This document shows positions 6,838 to 13,559 of a stretch of DNA of 13,647 bases, piece after piece. Source of the stretch: Deltaproteobacteria bacterium. Lineage in GTDB: Bacteria; Desulfobacterota; DSM-4660; Desulfatiglandales; Desulfatiglandaceae. The notes under the pieces were generated by a model, which saw nothing but the letters and a program-made list of their open reading frames with translations, searched no databases and had not been told where the DNA came from. Location: assembly GCA_019314425.1 (NCBI GenBank), contig JAFCZI010000104.1:1-13647 (forward strand), in the 5' to 3' direction. The position numbers were made by a program, and so were the translations under genes. Each line of letters begins with the position of its first letter. Position 1 is the stretch's first letter.

Positions 6838-6931
6838 GATGCACTCGTAAAAAGTCACAAATCCATCTGTCGATGGCGTTGTAAAAAGTCCCAGCTACCG
6901 TGTTGCCGTGATTTTTCAGAATCTCAACATA
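6838..6931. repeat. Palindromic repeat family, copy A (half-element) 3' of the phosphofructokinase gene
   Basis: This copy contains the 34-base left-end unit (GATGCACTCGTAAAAAGTC...) followed by a single arm beginning GATGGCGTTGTAAAAAGTCC and ending TTTTTCAGAATCTCAACATA. The arm equals the reverse complement of the right half of copies B and C, so A is one arm of the hairpin without its partner. It ends nine bases from the phosphofructokinase stop codon at 6941. Confidence 0.8.
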
Positions 6932-6940
6932 TTACAACAC

Positions 6941-8170
6941 TCACCCTTTATCGGAAGAGCCCGTCAAATCCCTGGGTTGTCCGGTGGATTCTATGACGCT
7001 GCTCCAGAGACGGCCATCGGGATCGATTCTTTTTCGCTCTGAAACCGCTATGGGGATCGGCACGTGGGTGTATTCCGAGTCCCAGTACCCCACCACCATG
7101 TTGGTTCGGCCAGCCATGCCCGCATGCACCGCATTGTGCCCCAGCAACAAACAGAAAACGGAGTCTTTCGGGTTGGCGGGAACACTGCGAATCACATAGC
7201 TGGGATCGATATACTTCAGTTGCAATTCCACCCCTTCACGTTGGAAATAGGCCTTGATTTCATCGCGAAGAAAAAGACCGATATCTCCGAATCGAAGGTT
7301 CCCGGACGCATCACAGGCACTATCTCTGTTCAACAGATCCTGGCCGGCCCCTTCGGCCACCACGATCACCGAGTGATCGGACCGCTCGAGTTGCTCTTTC
7401 AACGCGGGTAGAAAACGCTCAAGGGTGAAGGGTATCTCCGGCACCAGGCAGAAATTGACGTCACTGGTGGCGAGGGCCGCGTAAGCGGAAATAAAGCCGG
7501 ATTCCCTCCCCATCAATTTGACCAGGCCCACGCCGTTTCGCGCCCCCTTCGCCTCCACGTGGGCCGCGTAGATACAGGGCCGGGCTGCTGAAACAGCGGT
7601 CTCAAATCCGAAAGACTGGTCCAAAAAGGAAATATCGTTGTCAATGGTTTTGGGAATCCCCACCACGCCGATCTTGAGGCTGCGCCGACCGTCGAGGGTG
7701 TCCACCATTTCCGAAACATCCTGAGGCCCCCGGGATGAACCGAGGATGGTGCCCCCTTTTTCGTGAATATCCGCCACAATCTTCGGGTTTAATTCCACGG
7801 GTGTGTGCTGGTGCCGGGGTGAAATACCCTCATACCCGTAACGAAACCCGAAAACCGTGTTGACATGGTAGTGGTAATGGAGGCTCAGGACAATGGCCCG
7901 GATCACGTCGTTCAACCCGGGGCAGATACCGCCGCAGGTGATGATGCCACATTTCAGTTTGGACGGATCAAAATAGATTTTTTCCCTGGGCCCGGCCATC
8001 TCAAAGCTTGGCAGAGACCTGCCAGCGTCAATGCATGTTTCGGCCTCTTTCAGCGTGGCGTAATACAACACGCGGTCTTCATCACTTACGAATTGACCCT
8101 TGGTCATGGGGGATGGCACGTTGCATCGGCCCAGTTTTTCTATTTCCAGATTCAGATCTTCTATTTTCAT
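6941..8170 (-). CDS. Phosphofructokinase-like protein lacking the GGDG catalytic segment (possibly inactive)
   Basis: This 409-residue protein clearly belongs to the phosphofructokinase (PfkA/PPi-PFK) superfamily, which phosphorylates fructose 6-phosphate. Family blocks are GGICPGLN (80-87), GGTILGSSRGP (139-149), PKTIDND (173-179, catalytic aspartate), MGRESG (220-225), PEIPF (244-248) and a C-terminal NAVHAGMAGRTNM. Lysine in PKTIDND is typical of pyrophosphate-dependent and related long forms. The stretch that should join VDTL (156-159) to LKIGVVG (165-171) is nearly absent. In relatives it holds about 30 residues including GGDG, the Mg-phosphate site. The frame is intact. I chose the ATG at 8170 (GAGG eight bases before) over the ATG at 8200, whose AGGAG is too close. 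A consensus-like promoter lies at 8296-8324. Catalysis is doubtful; a regulatory role, recent decay or a sequence error are alternatives. Confidence 0.85.
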   Translation of the reverse strand: MKIEDLNLEIEKLGRCNVPSPMTKGQFVSDEDRVLYYATLKEAETCIDAGRSLPSFEMAGPREKIYFDPSKLKCGIITCGGICPGLNDVIRAIVLSLHYHYHVNTVFGFRYGYEGISPRHQHTPVELNPKIVADIHEKGGTILGSSRGPQDVSEMVDTLDGRRSLKIGVVGIPKTIDNDISFLDQSFGFETAVSAARPCIYAAHVEAKGARNGVGLVKLMGRESGFISAYAALATSDVNFCLVPEIPFTLERFLPALKEQLERSDHSVIVVAEGAGQDLLNRDSACDASGNLRFGDIGLFLRDEIKAYFQREGVELQLKYIDPSYVIRSVPANPKDSVFCLLLGHNAVHAGMAGRTNMVVGYWDSEYTHVPIPIAVSERKRIDPDGRLWSSVIESTGQPRDLTGSSDKG

Positions 8171-8224
8171 GATGAAAACCTCACATTTTCTCGTTCCCAT
8201 GCTCCTGCCTGGAAACCGGGTGGA

Positions 8225-8290
8225 AGGGCGGACACACAGGTCCGCCCCTACGGGATTGGGAGGGTAGGGGCAGACCTGTGTGTCTGCCCT
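8225..8290. repeat. Double-hairpin inverted repeat in the phosphofructokinase leader
   Basis: Two 27-base arms, 8225-8251 and 8264-8290, are inverted copies with two differences. Each arm is itself a hairpin: GGGCGGAC-ACACAG-GTCCGCCC and, in the other arm, GGGCAGAC-ACACAG-GTCTGCCC. The two differences are on opposite sides of the same base pair, so pairing is kept in both arms. It lies immediately downstream of the -10 box at 8296-8301, at the predicted 5' end of the transcript. Confidence 0.8.
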
Positions 8291-8295
8291 ACTGG

Positions 8296-8324
8296 AGAAT
8301 AGAAAAATGGGGCTAGGGTGTCAA
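8296..8324 (-). promoter_or_regulatory. Candidate sigma-70 promoter for the phosphofructokinase-like gene
   Basis: On the minus strand a perfect TTGACA (8324-8319) is followed by a 17-base spacer and TATTCT (8301-8296), four of six matches to the -10 consensus. The predicted start falls near 8289, at the edge of the double hairpin. The leader to the ATG at 8170 would be about 120 bases. Confidence 0.5.
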
Positions 8325-8379
8325 CCCTCTTCGCTTCCAGGGGGCTGAGTGGCAAAAAAACATTGACAATATGAATTTT

Positions 8380-8540
8380 GATGCACTCGTAAAAAGTCAA
8401 AAATCCATCTGTAGATGGCATTGTAAAAGGTTCCATATACAAGGCGTAGTGGTTTTTCAGGATCATAGGCATACATGTGGTATGTTGAGATTCTGAAAAA
8501 TCACTGCAACGCAGTAGATGGGACTTTTTACGACACCATC
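8380..8540. repeat. Palindromic repeat family, copy B (161 bp, complete)
   Basis: This is a MITE-like element. The left end GATGCACTCGTAAAAAGTC and the reverse complement of the right end, GATGGTGTCGTAAAAAGTC, match at 16 of 19 bases. The inner 127 bases (8414-8540) form a long imperfect hairpin centred on CATACATGTGGTATG. The left end carries a tandem 34-base duplication of the terminal unit. It differs from copy C at about ten of 161 positions, mostly near the left end. No transposase is encoded. Possible flanking ATTTT duplications are too ambiguous to call. Confidence 0.9.
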
Positions 8541-8835
8541 AATTTTCAATGGGTATTAAAATTCGGAAGGTAAACTTAATGGCCCCGTTGATTTTTCGTA
8601 AATATTCGGCCAGAACCCCATCTTCGCCTATTTTGGTCTGCTCACATAGCATTGTATGCATATTGTCACCTATGTGCTCTGGTCCCTTTTCGAGCTGATC
8701 ACCTTGGGATTTCCGGGCATTTCCTTCCCGCAGCTGGATTTGCACATCCGATCGGCGGAAGGTTTGAAGGATTTTCATCAAGACGGCCCCCGGGAAAGCG
8801 TCGATAGTACAGCCAAAGGTAATCCCAAGGATCAA
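8539..8835 (-). CDS. 98-codon ORF of unknown function downstream of tupC (weak HPr-like resemblance)
   Basis: This open frame starts at TTG 8835 and lies in the same reading frame as tupC, 36 bases after its stop; the frame is open from that stop onward. Its own stop TGA is the last bases of repeat copy B. I do not recognise it securely. The segment AFPGAVLMKILQTFRRSDVQIQ vaguely resembles the start of HPr phosphocarrier proteins (HARPA...LVK...F.SDV.I), but the active histidine and following arginine would be Asp and Phe, so it could not act as a normal HPr. No Shine-Dalgarno sequence is visible at the TTG. It could be a decayed HPr-like gene, a small tup-operon gene or non-coding DNA. The coincidence of its end with a repeat copy, as seen for thiC and eamA, mildly favours a real 3' end. 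Confidence 0.25.
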   Translation of the reverse strand: MILGITFGCTIDAFPGAVLMKILQTFRRSDVQIQLREGNARKSQGDQLEKGPEHIGDNMHTMLCEQTKIGEDGVLAEYLRKINGAIKFTFRILIPIEN

Positions 8836-8871
8836 TGAGAGAAAAGCGGTCTCTTTGGCCGGGATTGAGAT

Positions 8872-9528
8872 CTACCGCACGCAGGTCAACCGTCCGTAAT
8901 CCAGGGCAAGAATATGATCGGCTATTTGACGAAGCCAGGTCAGTTGATGGCTGATGATAATCAACGTCGTACCCCACTGATTTCGTGCATCCAGGACAGC
9001 ACGCAGAATGAGCTCCGAGCTTTCGCGGTCCACATTGGCCGTCGGTTCATCCAGCAACAGGACCTTTGGCTTAAGGACCAGCCGGGCGGCCAGGGCAACC
9101 CGCTGTGCTTCACCTCCAGACAGCTCCCGCCAGGAGCGTTGGGAAAACCGGGCCGGGTCCAGACCGACTTTTTCAAGAGCCCGGCGCACCGGGTGTTGGG
9201 TGTCGGATATGCCCCGAATCTTGAGCCCATAAGACACGTTGGTCTGCACGGATCTTTTGAGAAGATACGGTTCCTGGCTCAACATGGTCACCTCACGGCG
9301 CAGGTTCAGGGAAACCTGGGACAGGGGTTGCCCCCGGAAAGTCACTCGGCCTGAGGCCGGTTTCTCCAGAAAAGCCAAAATCCTCATCAAAGTGCTTTTG
9401 CCCGAACCGTTGGGTCCAATCAAGCCGGTAATGGTCTTCACTTCGATGTCCAGGCGATCCACATCCAGAACCGTTCGATCCCGGTAAACCTGGGTCAGAT
9501 TTTCCAAATGATAAAGTGATTTGTTCAT
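8872..9528 (-). CDS. tupC: TupC, tungstate ABC transporter ATP-binding protein
   Basis: This 218-residue ABC ATPase powers import of the oxyanion bound by TupA. It has Walker A GPNGSGKST (38-46), a Q-loop glutamine at about 85, the signature LSGGEAQRVALAA (136-148), Walker B VLLLDEPTANVD (156-167) and the H-loop histidine at about 194. It is shorter than ModC-type molybdate ATPases and has no C-terminal TOBE/MOP domain, which is usual for TupC. The ATG overlaps the tupB stop by four bases (ATGA), indicating translational coupling. The substrate assignment comes from the neighbouring TupA-type binding protein, not from the ATPase itself. Confidence 0.9.
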   Translation of the reverse strand: MNKSLYHLENLTQVYRDRTVLDVDRLDIEVKTITGLIGPNGSGKSTLMRILAFLEKPASGRVTFRGQPLSQVSLNLRREVTMLSQEPYLLKRSVQTNVSYGLKIRGISDTQHPVRRALEKVGLDPARFSQRSWRELSGGEAQRVALAARLVLKPKVLLLDEPTANVDRESSELILRAVLDARNQWGTTLIIISHQLTWLRQIADHILALDYGRLTCVR

Positions 9529-10220
9529 TGTCCTGATAACCGTTTCAAACCGGACATGGCCAGATTAACCAGCAATGCCAGGGTAATCAGAATCAAACCC
9601 AACGCAATCCCCATGGCAAACTGCCCCTTGCCCGTCTCCAGAGCAATGGCCGTTGTGATGGTTCGGGTGTGCCATTTGATGTTGCCGCCGACCATCATGG
9701 AAATACCCACTTCGGATACAATCCGACCGTATGCGGCCGCCCCCGCCAAGGCCAGAGCAAACCGGGCTTCCCAAAGTGACGTCAGCAATAGTTGACGCGG
9801 GTCAGTCCCCAGGGTTAGTAAAGTTTGTTTAAGGCGATAATCAAGGTTTTCCACAGCGCTTGCCGTCATAGCCACCACGATAGGAAGGCCCAGGATGGTC
9901 TGACCGATGGCCATGCCCGGGATAGTAAACAATAAGTCTAAATCTCCCAGTGGCCCCCGGTGTGACATGAAGGCGTAACAAAGAAGCCCGATGACCACTG
10001 TGGGCAGAGACAACAACGTATCCACAACAACCCGAATAAGTCGCCGTCCGGGGAAATGGGCGTAACCCAGGCAAAATCCAAGGGGCGCGCCAATGGACAT
10101 GCTGACCACCACGGAAAGGCTGGAAGCAAAAACGGTGGTTTTCACGGCAGAATAGGTTTCAGGGTCCCCATGAAACAGGAGACTAAAAGCCTGGATCAGC
10201 CCACTCAGGATATAGTCCAT
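9525..10220 (-). CDS. tupB: TupB, tungstate ABC transporter permease
   Basis: This 231-residue protein is an inner-membrane permease with about five to six hydrophobic segments, for example 27-52, 61-84, 95-118 and 203-223. It contains the EAA-type loop TLGTDPRQLLLTSLWEARF followed by AGAAAYGRIVSEVGISMMVGGN, the coupling region that contacts the ATPase and is highly typical of TupB/WtpB-like permeases. It lies 35 bases after tupA and overlaps tupC by four bases. No strong Shine-Dalgarno sequence precedes the ATG at 10220, so its translation may depend partly on tupA. Confidence 0.9.
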   Translation of the reverse strand: MDYILSGLIQAFSLLFHGDPETYSAVKTTVFASSLSVVVSMSIGAPLGFCLGYAHFPGRRLIRVVVDTLLSLPTVVIGLLCYAFMSHRGPLGDLDLLFTIPGMAIGQTILGLPIVVAMTASAVENLDYRLKQTLLTLGTDPRQLLLTSLWEARFALALAGAAAYGRIVSEVGISMMVGGNIKWHTRTITTAIALETGKGQFAMGIALGLILITLALLVNLAMSGLKRLSGQ

Positions 10221-10255
10221 GGATCAAAAAAAGCGTACCAAAAAAGTTGAATGTT

Positions 10256-11086
10256 TCACTGCCTGGCGTTGGGAATAAATAGTTTTTTGTTCAACAATGT
10301 GAAGTTTCCGATGAGATTTTGAATTTGCTTCGAGGTCATCCATTCGGTGAACTTCCTGACCAGTTCGTATTTCGCATTCTTACACTTGGCCGGATTGACG
10401 GCAATAATGCTGTACTGATTGAACAGCGCAGGATCACCTTCCACCAGAACCTTCAAGGGGGGATTGCCGCCGTGATTGTCGGCGAATTTGATGAATGTGC
10501 CCCGGTCGGTCATGGTGTAGCCACCCTTCTCAGTGGCCACGTTGATGGTTGCGATCATGCCCTGCCCTGCTTGCACGTACCATTTTTCCTTGTCCGGCAC
10601 CGTCAAGCCGGCGGCCTTCCACAGGGAAATTTCCTTTTTGTTGGTGCCGGAATTGTCCCCACGGCTCACAAAGGCCGCTTTTCCGGCTCCCAGTTTCCGG
10701 ATGGCTTCGAGCACGGACGCGCTTTTGAGTCCAGCCGGGTCATTTTCAGGACCGATGATGACGAAGTCATTATACATCACCCGGGTTCGATCTTTGCCGA
10801 AGCCGTCGGCCACATATTTTTTTTCCGTAGCCGGCGCATGCACCAACAGCACGTCCACATCACAGTTTTTACCCATCTCCAGGGCCTTCCCTGTCCCGAT
10901 AGCGGTCCATTTCAATTCAATCCCCGTGTCTTTCTTGAATTCAGGGGCCAGTATGTCCATGAGACCGGTGTTGTCGGTACTGGTCGTCGTGGCCAGCATC
11001 AGGCTGTCAGCCGCCGAAACGCTCAGGGGGCCGGAAACCCACAATACCAACGCCGTCAAAAATAAAAAAACAGCCATTCTGACCAT
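10256..11086 (-). CDS. tupA: TupA, tungstate-binding periplasmic protein
   Basis: This 276-residue periplasmic binding protein has an N-terminal signal peptide (hydrophobic 5-20, likely cleavage after SVSA at 25). The mature protein contains LATTTSTDNTGLMD (31-44), whose TTTS is a known TupA oxyanion-binding signature. It also has GTGKALEMG, DVDVLLVHAP and YNDFVIIGPENDPA, all typical of TupA and distinct from ModA. By family knowledge these proteins bind tungstate with high selectivity over molybdate. The ATG at 11086 is preceded by AGGAG at about eight bases. Repeat copy C lies only 29 bases upstream, so its promoter is either inside the repeat or further upstream through eamA. Confidence 0.93.
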   Translation of the reverse strand: MVRMAVFLFLTALVLWVSGPLSVSAADSLMLATTTSTDNTGLMDILAPEFKKDTGIELKWTAIGTGKALEMGKNCDVDVLLVHAPATEKKYVADGFGKDRTRVMYNDFVIIGPENDPAGLKSASVLEAIRKLGAGKAAFVSRGDNSGTNKKEISLWKAAGLTVPDKEKWYVQAGQGMIATINVATEKGGYTMTDRGTFIKFADNHGGNPPLKVLVEGDPALFNQYSIIAVNPAKCKNAKYELVRKFTEWMTSKQIQNLIGNFTLLNKKLFIPNARQ

Positions 11087-11115
11087 ATTCTAACTCCTTT
11101 GTTCCCGCTACTTTT

Positions 11116-11276
11116 GATGGCCTCGTCAAAAGCCGCAAATCCATCTGTAGATGGCGTTGTAAAAGGTTCCATATACAAGGCATAGTGGTTTTTCAGGATC
11201 GTAGGCATACATGTGGTATGTTGAGATTCTGAAAAATCACTGCAACGCAGTAGATGGGACTTTTTACGACGCCATC
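11116..11276. repeat. Palindromic repeat family, copy C (161 bp, complete)
   Basis: This is a full-length copy in the same orientation as copy B and nearly identical in the right-hand 120 bases. The right end GACTTTTTACGACGCCATC is four bases from the eamA stop. The left end is 29 bases from the tupA ATG. It has the same tandem left-end unit (11116-11149 and from 11150) and central hairpin. The left terminal unit has several substitutions, which suggests weaker constraint there. Confidence 0.9.
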
Positions 11277-11280
11277 AATA

Positions 11281-12213
11281 TTACCCTGTTTGTCTGATAT
11301 TTGCGGGACACAATTCATCCCGTTCTCTTTTCAGCTGGAGTACGACAATCGCTGCCACAACCATGGTGCCCCCTGCTATCTGCAGGGGCTGGAGGGATTC
11401 ACCGATAAAGAGGTAGGCAAACAGACCTGCGGAGATCGGCTCCAGGGTTGCTGTAATGGATGCTCGGGTAGAGCGGACGTAGTTTACCCCCACGAAAAAG
11501 AGACCAAAAGGGAGAACGGTTCCCACAATGGATACATAGAAAATCCACCCCCACTGGGCAGCCGTAAAACCGGCCCTGAGATAGTGGAATGGTGGATACA
11601 GGGTGTGCCAGGTAATCGTCGCGAAGAGGAAGGCATAAAAAAGTATAGTCCAGGGAGAATAGCGGTGCATGCCCCTCTCACCGACAAGGGTATATACCGC
11701 AAAGCAGAGGGCCGATGAGAGGCCCACCAGGATTCCCAACTGGTTCATTTTCAACAGGTGGAGGCTGTATCCCCCCACAACAAGGTAGCAACCGCCAAGG
11801 GACAGGAACAGCGCAAGAATCTTTGTGGACGTAAGGCGTTCCTTCCAGAAGCATATGGAAAAAAAAGCCACCATGACGGGGGCAAGATACTGTAGAAAAA
11901 TGGCGGCGGCCACCTGGATTTTGCTGATGGCATAAAAATAGGTCACCTGGACCAGGGCCATCACCACGCCCCCCAGAATGAAAAAATACCAGAGATCCCT
12001 GGGCCGAATTTTAAAAAGCGGCCGGAACCCGATTCCCAAAACAATAGCCAGGAGCACGGTTGAAACCGTCACCCGGATCTGCACCAGCTCAAAAGGGGTC
12101 ACGCCGCCGATGAACAGGGCTTTCCCAACAGTCCCGGAAGACGCCCACATAACAGCTGCCGCCGCAACACAAAGATACCCTTTCATGGAATGAGAGATCT
12201 CAGAATTTTTCAT
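11281..12213 (-). CDS. DMT superfamily (EamA family) permease
   Basis: This 310-residue integral membrane protein has about ten hydrophobic segments arranged as two EamA repeats (about 12-145 and 157-300). The opening GYLCVAAAAVMWASSGTVGK and the second-half GTVLPFGLFFVGVNYVRSTRASI are characteristic of drug/metabolite exporters of the EamA type. The substrate cannot be deduced; family members export amino acids, nucleotides or other small metabolites. Two in-frame ATGs are possible, at 12213 and at 12186 (MKGYL), and neither has a strong Shine-Dalgarno sequence; I kept the longer form. It lies 41 bases after thiC with a repeat fragment between, so co-transcription is plausible. Its TAA stop is followed in frame by a TGA inside repeat copy C. 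Confidence 0.85.
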   Translation of the reverse strand: MKNSEISHSMKGYLCVAAAAVMWASSGTVGKALFIGGVTPFELVQIRVTVSTVLLAIVLGIGFRPLFKIRPRDLWYFFILGGVVMALVQVTYFYAISKIQVAAAIFLQYLAPVMVAFFSICFWKERLTSTKILALFLSLGGCYLVVGGYSLHLLKMNQLGILVGLSSALCFAVYTLVGERGMHRYSPWTILFYAFLFATITWHTLYPPFHYLRAGFTAAQWGWIFYVSIVGTVLPFGLFFVGVNYVRSTRASITATLEPISAGLFAYLFIGESLQPLQIAGGTMVVAAIVVLQLKRERDELCPANIRQTG

Positions 12214-12229
12214 GCAGATATCGGTACAC

Positions 12230-12256
12230 GTAGATGGGACTTTTTACGGCGCCATC
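12230..12256. repeat. Palindromic repeat family, copy D (right-end fragment)
   Basis: Only the right 27 bases remain (GTAGATGGGACTTTTTACGG...), with one difference from copy C. It lies between thiC and eamA in the same orientation as the other copies, and the thiC stop codon falls inside its terminal bases. Confidence 0.75.
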
Positions 12257-13559
12257 AATCTTTAAAATAGTCTCTCACCTGCTTGATAGCGCAAAATTTC
12301 CCGCACATGGTGCACACATCCGCCTCCTCAGGTGGATTCTGTTCGCGATATGCCCTGGCTTTCTGCGGGTCGATGGCCAGCTTCATCTGGGTTTCCCAGT
12401 CCAGGTTTCTTCTCGCCACAGCCATTTGCCGGTCCCGTTCGATGGCCTGTTTGTTCCCTTTTGCAATGTCCGCCGCATGGGCGGCAATTTTGGTCACCAC
12501 CACACCTTCACGCACATCCGAAACGCTTGGCAGGCAGAGATGTTCCGCAGGCGTCACATAACAGAGATAATCAGCACCGGCAGCGCCAGCCAAGGCACCG
12601 CCAATGGCGCAGGCCACATGATCGTATCCCGCTGCAATATCCGTCACCAGAGGCCCCAGCACATAAAAAGGCGCATGTTGGCACATCTTCTTTTGAAGGA
12701 TGATATTGGTTTCAATCTGATCCAGCGGCACGTGACCCGGGCCTTCGATCATCACCTGAACATCCTTTTCCCAAGCCCTCCGGGTCAAATCACCCAGGGT
12801 CATCAATTCATGGATCTGCGCTCTGTCCGTTGCGTCAGCCAAGCACCCTGGCCGCAACCCGTCCCCAAGGCTGAGGGTAACATCATACTTTTCCGCTATT
12901 TCCAGAAGTCGGTCATATTCTTCGTAAAGGGGATTTTCCTTCCCATGGTGCAACATCCATGTGGTCAGAAAAGACCCGCCCCTGCTGACGATATTGGTTA
13001 TTCGCCCCTGCTTTTTCAGAAGATCAAGGGCTGCCAGGGTCAATCCGCAATGAACCGTAATGAAATCCACGCCATCTTGGGCCTGTTTTTCAATGACCTC
13101 AAAAATTTTGTCGGCATCGAGCTTAACGAGCGCGCCTTTTTCCTCCACCGTCTCAACGACGGCTTGATATATGGGGACCGTGCCGATGGCTACTGTGGAT
13201 TCCGCCAAAATGCTGTTCCTGGACCCATCAATATCCCGGCCCGTTGAAAGATCCATAACCGTATCAGCACCGGCCTCAATGGACACCCGAAGTTTGTCCA
13301 TTTCCTCTTCAAGAATGGCCCTGTCCGAGGACGTCCCGATATTGGCATTGACCTTCACGAGCAATCCCTCTCCGATCCCGCAGGGAACCAGACGGTGATG
13401 CCGTCTGTTGGCGGGAATGACCACCCTTCCCAGAGCTATCTGCTCCCGAAGCCAATCCACATTCACCTGTTCATATTCAGCCACCTTTTCCATTTCCAGC
13501 GTAATAATGCCGGATCTTGCGTCCTTTGCGTCTCTGCGGTGAATACAGGTTTTTCTCAA
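12255..13559 (-). CDS. thiC: ThiC, phosphomethylpyrimidine synthase (short anaerobe-type form)
   Basis: This 434-residue protein converts aminoimidazole ribotide to hydroxymethylpyrimidine phosphate by radical SAM chemistry, in thiamine synthesis. It contains VNANIGTSSD (70-79), STGRDID, VGTVPIYQA-like IGTVPIYQA, TVHCGLT, IVSRGGS, SLGDGLRPG, MIEGPGHVP and PFYVLGPLVTDIAAGYDH, all ThiC blocks. It lacks the long N-terminal domain of E. coli ThiC. The terminal cluster motif is CTMCGKFC (416-423), spaced CX2CX3C. The only start upstream of the conserved GIITLEM is TTG 13559, without a visible Shine-Dalgarno sequence; the first ~14 codons come from a dispersed repeat. ATG 13493 is an alternative but would cut the conserved block. 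A paralogue making 5-hydroxybenzimidazole (BzaF) is a possible alternative. No TPP riboswitch is visible in the 88 bases upstream. Confidence 0.87.
   Translation of the reverse strand: MRKTCIHRRDAKDARSGIITLEMEKVAEYEQVNVDWLREQIALGRVVIPANRRHHRLVPCGIGEGLLVKVNANIGTSSDRAILEEEMDKLRVSIEAGADTVMDLSTGRDIDGSRNSILAESTVAIGTVPIYQAVVETVEEKGALVKLDADKIFEVIEKQAQDGVDFITVHCGLTLAALDLLKKQGRITNIVSRGGSFLTTWMLHHGKENPLYEEYDRLLEIAEKYDVTLSLGDGLRPGCLADATDRAQIHELMTLGDLTRRAWEKDVQVMIEGPGHVPLDQIETNIILQKKMCQHAPFYVLGPLVTDIAAGYDHVACAIGGALAGAAGADYLCYVTPAEHLCLPSVSDVREGVVVTKIAAHAADIAKGNKQAIERDRQMAVARRNLDWETQMKLAIDPQKARAYREQNPPEEADVCTMCGKFCAIKQVRDYFKD
13515..13543. repeat. Dispersed short repeat forming the thiC 5' coding end
   Basis: On the minus strand it reads TTCACCGCAGAGACGCAAAG followed by GACGCAAGA. 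It is the same kind of sequence as the CGCAAAG repeat at 3903-3932. Translated in the thiC frame it gives HRRDAKDAR, which is not part of the conserved ThiC fold. Confidence 0.55.

Follow-up and report, generated by a model that had tools for sequence, protein, structure and literature searches.

Repeats in a contig of a sulfate-reducing bacterium are copies of a small mobile element whose 3' end is tied to stop codons

Four repeats stand near the ends of genes in a stretch of 13,647 nucleotides from a deltaproteobacterium (contig JAFCZI010000104.1 of assembly GCA_019314425.1; the whole stretch is called the window below), which raises the question of what these repeats are and why they lie where they do. 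The window is one contig (C96) of a draft genome of 2.81 Mb in 475 contigs, about 80% complete, and its translations include what we take to be sulfate-reduction genes. On account of these genes, and of the label borne by most named genomes with the element, we assign it to the Desulfobacterales. It is well shown that the four repeats belong, as copies or fragments, to a small mobile element of sulfate-reducing bacteria without a gene of its own, a miniature inverted-repeat transposable element (MITE), and well supported that the tie to stop codons is real and specific to the element's 3' end. Taken together, the results favor, with a probability of about 0.85, a reading in which MITE copies are moved in trans by a DDE transposase (PF01609), their 3' ends being biased toward stop codons, possibly through retention.

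The repeat family and its copies in the window

An alignment of 30 copies defines an element of about 163 bp bounded by imperfect terminal inverted repeats, TGATGNNCTCGTAAAAAGTC and GACTTTTTACGRCGCCATCA, and containing an inner, near-perfect palindrome with arms of about 60 bp. The palindrome begins about 35 bp in from the 5' end; there is therefore an extra outer block on the 5' side and the element is polar. A genome-wide search with the 161-bp copies, as proposed in an earlier note on this DNA, revealed more copies than chance would give: copy B (described below) gave 43 BLAST matches in its own genome, at least 40 of them strong and distinct (40 of the 227 first-look candidates were scored), and the terminal core TCGTAAAAAGTCRC occurs there 203 times with at most one mismatch, as against 5 times for a reversed control. 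From 100 fetched contig stretches together with the window (865 kb), 141 copies or fragments were obtained after merging 156 pieces. The two-ended copies (n = 77) measure 60–299 bp, mostly 152–167 bp, and carry no gene of their own; internally deleted forms of 60–100 bp exist.

An exact direct duplication of 6–7 bp borders 34 of the 78 copies with both ends; all 34 duplications end in T and 33 start with A. The base outside them is C on the left in 21/34 and G on the right in 14/34 (TC in 11, GA in 10), and these flanking bases resemble the element's own tip. At ten junctions two ends, some of them poor, stand face to face with 6 or 7 bp between them. Among 85 genomes from the class, each scored for no more than 9 candidates, at least 37 match copy B (E ≤ 0.001), and a pattern for the 3' end places the family in at least 27 other named metagenome-assembled genomes (MAGs), mostly labelled Desulfobacterales. 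Shortness (below about 600 bp), lack of genes, terminal inverted repeats, short target duplications and many dispersed copies, all of which define the MITE class, were found; with the likely autonomous partner detected in other genomes (see below), they bear out the proposal of a non-autonomous mobile element. We recognised no earlier description of the family among the open-access papers listed by our searches.

Within the window, the four same-orientation copies of the earlier note resolve into two complete elements and two pieces. Copy B (8379–8541, forward strand), from GATG at 8380 to CATC at 8540, is 97% identical to the consensus and is enclosed by an exact 6-bp duplication, AATTTT, at 8374–8379 on its left and 8541–8546 on its right (both forward strand). 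Copy C (11115–11277, forward strand) is also complete; it shows no visible target duplication, its flanks ACTTTT and AATATT being different. The two have the same orientation, are 94% identical across 161–171 bp and possess, as had been described, terminal inverted repeats and a long internal hairpin. Copy D (12230–12257, forward strand) is a 28-bp relic, the last 28 bp of the element, whose tip makes the stop codon of thiC. Copy A (6837 to about 6936, forward strand) joins the 5' end (TGATGCACTCGTAAAAAGTC) to a 3' arm that is inverted, and lacks the 3' terminus: residues 6837–6923 match consensus positions 1–86 at 84%, and 6872–6936 match the reverse complement of the 3' arm in B and in C at 88–89%. 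It is a rearranged fragment, not a plain truncated copy. An Rfam search of the window copies returned no family, and a scan for promoter-like sites inside them found none. Comparison with relatives gave no exact empty site aligned for any window copy, because the relatives differ around B and C.

Two other arrangements were observed elsewhere. A 28-bp palindrome close to GATGAATTCGTAAAAAGTCGAATTCATC, present in several genomes (L179:3484, L087:787, L088:4836, L114:2688), looks like two element tips joined around a core. The copies at L153:4882–5180 and L191:2–258 are broken up by another repeated sequence (GAGCCAGTTTCAAAACGCCCCCTTTT...), and a similar stretch lies beside a copy in L025.

Association of the 3' end with stop codons

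Gene ends were defined by our own codon-score gene caller, trained on 344 long open reading frames (ORFs), and not by annotation. The contigs of the own genome had been picked by a match to the 5'-end core or to a 161-bp copy, except for 13 without a copy (L217–L229), and later contigs are under-sampled among the one-mismatch cores listed. For element ends with a neighbouring gene, a stop codon lies within −16 to +10 bp of the 3' end in 35/94 cases and a start codon in 0/94; the corresponding values for the 5' end are 12/104 and 1/104 (p = 2e-5 for the stops). Random intergenic points weighted by the target motif give an expected near-stop rate of 6–7%, the points being allowed to reach 15 bp inside gene ends and the motif comprising five flanking bases from copies away from stops. 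The 3' end is thus found at stops about five times as often as expected and about three times as often as the 5' end. The asymmetry persists for stops 0–10 bp outside the element (19/94 vs. 5/104, p = 0.001) and with stricter gene scores (28/92 vs. 11/101).

A second set comprised 99 loci of 27 named MAGs, on which the gene caller was trained. Among the 3'-end-pattern matches listed, which under-sample 5' ends, 38 of 109 3' ends and 5 of 52 5' ends are near stops (p = 6e-4), and one or more such cases occur in 18 of the 26 MAGs for which a 3' end was scored. One MAG, JAADHK, provides 32 of these 109 ends; without it the counts are 33/77 and 1/26.

Orientation in tandem spacers is biased near stops only (25:6 in the own genome). 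Away from stops it is even, with 22:15 in the own genome, 11:12 for its two-ended copies and 15:19 in the other MAGs, and a general orientation bias relative to transcription was rejected on this ground. The tabulation of distance and orientation relative to stops suggested earlier thus yielded neither random orientation nor lack of enrichment; the supposed capping of gene ends across the genome applies to the 3' end and not to the 5' end. The target motif was rejected as the cause of the bias, since it does not predict stops. Spacers with a copy versus those without number 23/57 between divergent, 66/335 between tandem and 12/58 between convergent genes, with no depletion between divergent genes. 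Other ends that carry the same terminal repeat, many of them ends of the 5' type from this family or its relatives, are near stops in 8/117 cases, and those with a different interior in 2/45, small numbers that come from a rough sorting with loose patterns.

How a stop codon survives the insertion can be read from the junctions. The element tip, T|GATG, yields an in-frame TGA when the junction phase fits, and therefore an insertion where a gene ends need hardly alter the protein, as for thiC. Empty sites were rebuilt for 16 copies, with no more than one mismatch tolerated between the two halves of the duplication. In 9 of them the native stop precedes the junction and is intact; in 3 it spans the junction (T|AG in L146, T|AA in L182 and L157, all T|GA after insertion); in 3 it is located 7–11 bp further on, and in 1, the site of copy B, 53 bp further on. 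Stops inside the element are found at −3 in 13 and at −14 in 3 cases in the own genome, and in 21 and 5 cases, respectively, in the other MAGs.

Candidate autonomous partner

A transposase with the same terminal repeats, which the earlier note proposed to look for, was detected in other genomes and not in the own one. The candidate partner is a two-frame insertion sequence of 2.36–2.43 kb with a PF01609 (DDE) domain. Searching 15 genomes for PF01609 gave 30 loci, among which L250 has terminal repeats at 100 and 2533, a duplication AATATT and 90-bp arms that are 90% complementary. L271, with a transposase 71–72% identical, has both terminal repeats and an exact duplication, ATCTTT; L272 has the left terminal repeat, and its contig stops before the right end. 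All three lie outside the window's genome. The partner proteins are encoded in a separate helix-turn-helix (HTH) frame and a DDE frame, which overlap at a run of nine A residues conserved in L250 (near 838–860), L261, L271 and L272 and likely to be a site of programmed frameshifting. The PF01609 score is 34.3 bits, above the cut-off of 23, and a protein search yielded 3,945 transposase homologues among 7,999 candidates scored. The DDE frame was searched in overlapping sets of 25 and 85 genomes (E 1e-3) and 395 genomes (1e-40), with matches in 1, 6 and 4 genomes, respectively; a PDB search by sequence gave no match for it.

In the draft genome of the window, about 80% complete, no match to the partner transposase was obtained, no terminal-repeat pair flanks its PF01609 genes L239 (incomplete at a contig edge) and L252, and an ISNCY transposase model found nothing. 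Pairs of terminal repeats that surround ORFs in the fetched DNA were also considered as partners; the three examined enclose ordinary genes. Among 181 looser pairs the duplication is exact in none and comes within one mismatch in eight. At L264 the sole repeats are a short, degenerate pair beside the gene, which we read as a separate small element. On these sequence comparisons, the window elements are probably mobilised by a separate transposase.

Terminator-like hairpin

In the consensus, the sequence that runs inward from the 3' end is TACTGC-GTT-GCAGTG-ATTTTTC, a terminator-like stem of 6 pairs, 3 of them G-C, followed by AUUUUUC. A scan of the window located this stem in copy B at 8502–8516 (reverse strand) and in copy C at 11238–11252 (reverse strand); the scan counted 17 terminator-like sites in 6 kb vs. 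7.9 expected from shuffling. In the own genome 73/104 3' ends and 3/113 5' ends match the terminator-like pattern, compared with 5% for shuffled arms. In simulated growing transcripts the stem belongs to the fold of lowest energy until the long hairpin forms. The predicted energy of that hairpin is −53 to −77 kcal/mol on either strand, in copies B and C as well as in the consensus.

Origin of the association

The window elements and the two-frame insertion sequence have the same terminal repeats of about 20 bp and the same 6–7 bp A....T duplications. The partner transposase or a relative would have moved the window elements in trans, with no source for it detected in the own draft genome, and copies whose 3' end abuts the stop of the upstream gene may then, with less confidence, have been preferentially retained. 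The reason could be that this end offers a stop codon together with an inward hairpin and U-run, perhaps a weak terminator, which the other end does not. Terminator-driven retention is one candidate cause of the stop bias, and the hairpin readable from the 3' end only is weakly supported in that role.

Several results weigh against this reading as a whole or in part. With strong gene calls only, the contrast shrinks to 21/87 vs. 9/94 in the own genome (p = 0.01) and to 16/90 vs. 2/43 in the other MAGs (p = 0.056). The bias is weak in the richest of the other MAGs, JAADHK (L031 and others), with 5/32 vs. 4/26, and the orientation of two-ended copies near stops is 15:5 in the own genome (p = 0.04) and 7:4 in the others (p = 0.55). 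The terminal repeat is present in only two (G323, G199) of the nine further genomes that contain relatives of the transposase; it is missing from the complete relative L261 and from the partial or interrupted relatives L262, L263, L265–L270 and L273. The terminator-like hairpin is weak (−4.9 kcal/mol) and is kept no better at stops (19/30) than elsewhere (48/61; 20/35 vs. 53/69 without the length filter). Only 51 of 121 3' ends of other MAGs score as terminator-like, the second pair of the stem is formed in 35% of 40 distinct relatives, in most of which the stem is broken, and fragment D is devoid of the hairpin. The earlier idea of a domesticated 3'-end module or terminator is accordingly unproven. 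As a separate observation, G000 and JAADHK are both rich in copies and very unlike in stop bias (35/94 and 5/32).

Alternatively, the transposition complex itself might insert the 3' end toward the stop of the upstream gene, guided by local DNA structure or transcription and with no later selection. Copies closest to the consensus, presumably young, are already biased (7/21 vs. 1/19), which fits such an insertion bias as well as retention and is a further point against the latter, and the peak is sharp, from −16 to +10 bp. However, the target motif fails to predict stops, orientation is even away from them, and the roughly sorted ends with the same terminal repeat and another interior are rarely at stops; targeting of gene ends, the wording of the earlier note, has so far no support as a property of the transposase, and we regard this explanation as rather unlikely. 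More unlikely still is that the association is mostly an artefact, an insertion within any ORF making that ORF seem to end at the element. The stops inside the element agree with this, and the window ORF 8539–8835 is one such case, but TGA and TAA are equally available from the 5' tip, which is nonetheless near stops far less often, the excess extends to stops outside the element, and more than half of the rebuilt sites retain their native stop upstream. Moreover, thiC and eamA, the sole two genes compared with orthologues, are full length. A purely structural 3'-untranslated-region module (an mRNA stabiliser or nuclease site) or an element of the repetitive extragenic palindrome (REP/REPIN) kind, with no transposon involved, would account for the long hairpin, for the mostly extragenic position of the copies and for window copies without an Rfam family or promoter-like site. 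As an origin it is contradicted by the target duplications, the terminal repeats in common with a DDE insertion sequence, the internally deleted forms down to 60 bp and the tandem insertions with 6–7 bp spacers, and we consider it highly improbable.

Under the preferred reading of MITE copies moved in trans, a bolder version is that the family carries a built-in, polarised gene-ending cassette, whose tip would remake an in-phase stop and whose adjoining hairpin would end the transcript. We put this forward tentatively, as somewhat doubtful. If true, insertion at a gene end would be nearly neutral or useful, and many gene 3' ends would have been rebuilt across an order of sulfate reducers. The results suggest a low-cost way for a transposon to spread in a compact genome, by settling on stop codons and substituting its own. 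This bias of one end can be measured in the own genome and in 26 other MAGs taken together; with a candidate transposase at hand, the question of passenger versus co-opted terminator for 3'-end repeats is now testable.

Comparison with known systems

MITEs derive from insertion sequences and are mobilised in trans. They are short and gene-less, have terminal inverted repeats, duplicate their target, occur in many copies and share their ends with a partner insertion sequence. The present family resembles the bacterial MITEs covered in the consulted parts of a review (PMC10969869) in its gene-less shortness, terminal repeats, duplications, copy number and partner; it differs by the end-specific tie to stop codons and the stop-regenerating tip. 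Those parts of the review raise terminators as a possibility, and 'stop codon' does not occur in its text (PMC10969869). Among the SPRITE, BOX and RUP repeats of Streptococcus pneumoniae, SPRITE is, in the portions considered of its description, likewise terminator-like and enriched near gene 3' ends, and co-option as a terminator was proposed (PMC3049150). SPRITE has short AAAA/TTTT ends and its target duplication could not be established, according to the same portions (PMC3049150), whereas our family has duplications, longer terminal repeats, a transposase partner and a bias of one end.

The partner has a DDE transposase (PF01609), as do the IS1634 and IS4 insertion sequences, but scores below the NCBIfam cut-offs for both (19.8/100 bits and 15.6/115 bits, respectively) and differs in having a separate HTH frame, which overlaps that of the DDE protein at the conserved A run. 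REP/REPIN sequences with RAYT have no target duplication and a Y1 transposase as partner. The duplications and the DDE partner therefore do not fit the REP-like nature once suggested for the window repeats; no search was aimed at RAYT.

Window genes and minor observations

The earlier observation that each copy starts near the stop of an ORF stands for thiC and eamA. The thiC stop, TGA (12255–12257, reverse strand), consists of the junction base and GA of copy D; two same-genus relatives have TGA at the same codon, which in the window is provided by the element tip. The eamA stop, TAA (11281–11283, reverse strand), overlaps the AATATT flank of copy C, and the protein of 310 residues is within about 3 residues of the length in two relatives, with a few terminal codons differing. 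Both genes are full length by this comparison and are good near-stop cases. The observation fails for the phosphofructokinase gene, whose stop (6941) adjoins the broken edge of copy A where there is no true element end, and is doubtful for the 98-codon ORF (8539–8835). The coding score of the latter is 7.5, vs. 66 for phosphofructokinase, its stop is the TGA of copy B itself and, once the empty site is rebuilt, its next stop comes 53 bp on; it is doubtful as a real gene.

Residues 8592–8659, inside this ORF, are 95% identical to a stretch in G000:C247 and about 90% to stretches in G085:C401 and G085:C321, all of the same genus, and a related stretch occurs in L142 near 2690; because of these matches at other places in the genus, we take the segment to be a dispersed repeat. 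Finally, a palindrome with 27-bp arms (AGGGCGGACACACAGGTCCGCCCCTAC and its complement) at 8225–8290 is probably another small dispersed repeat, since stretches like it recur in a genome of the same genus.

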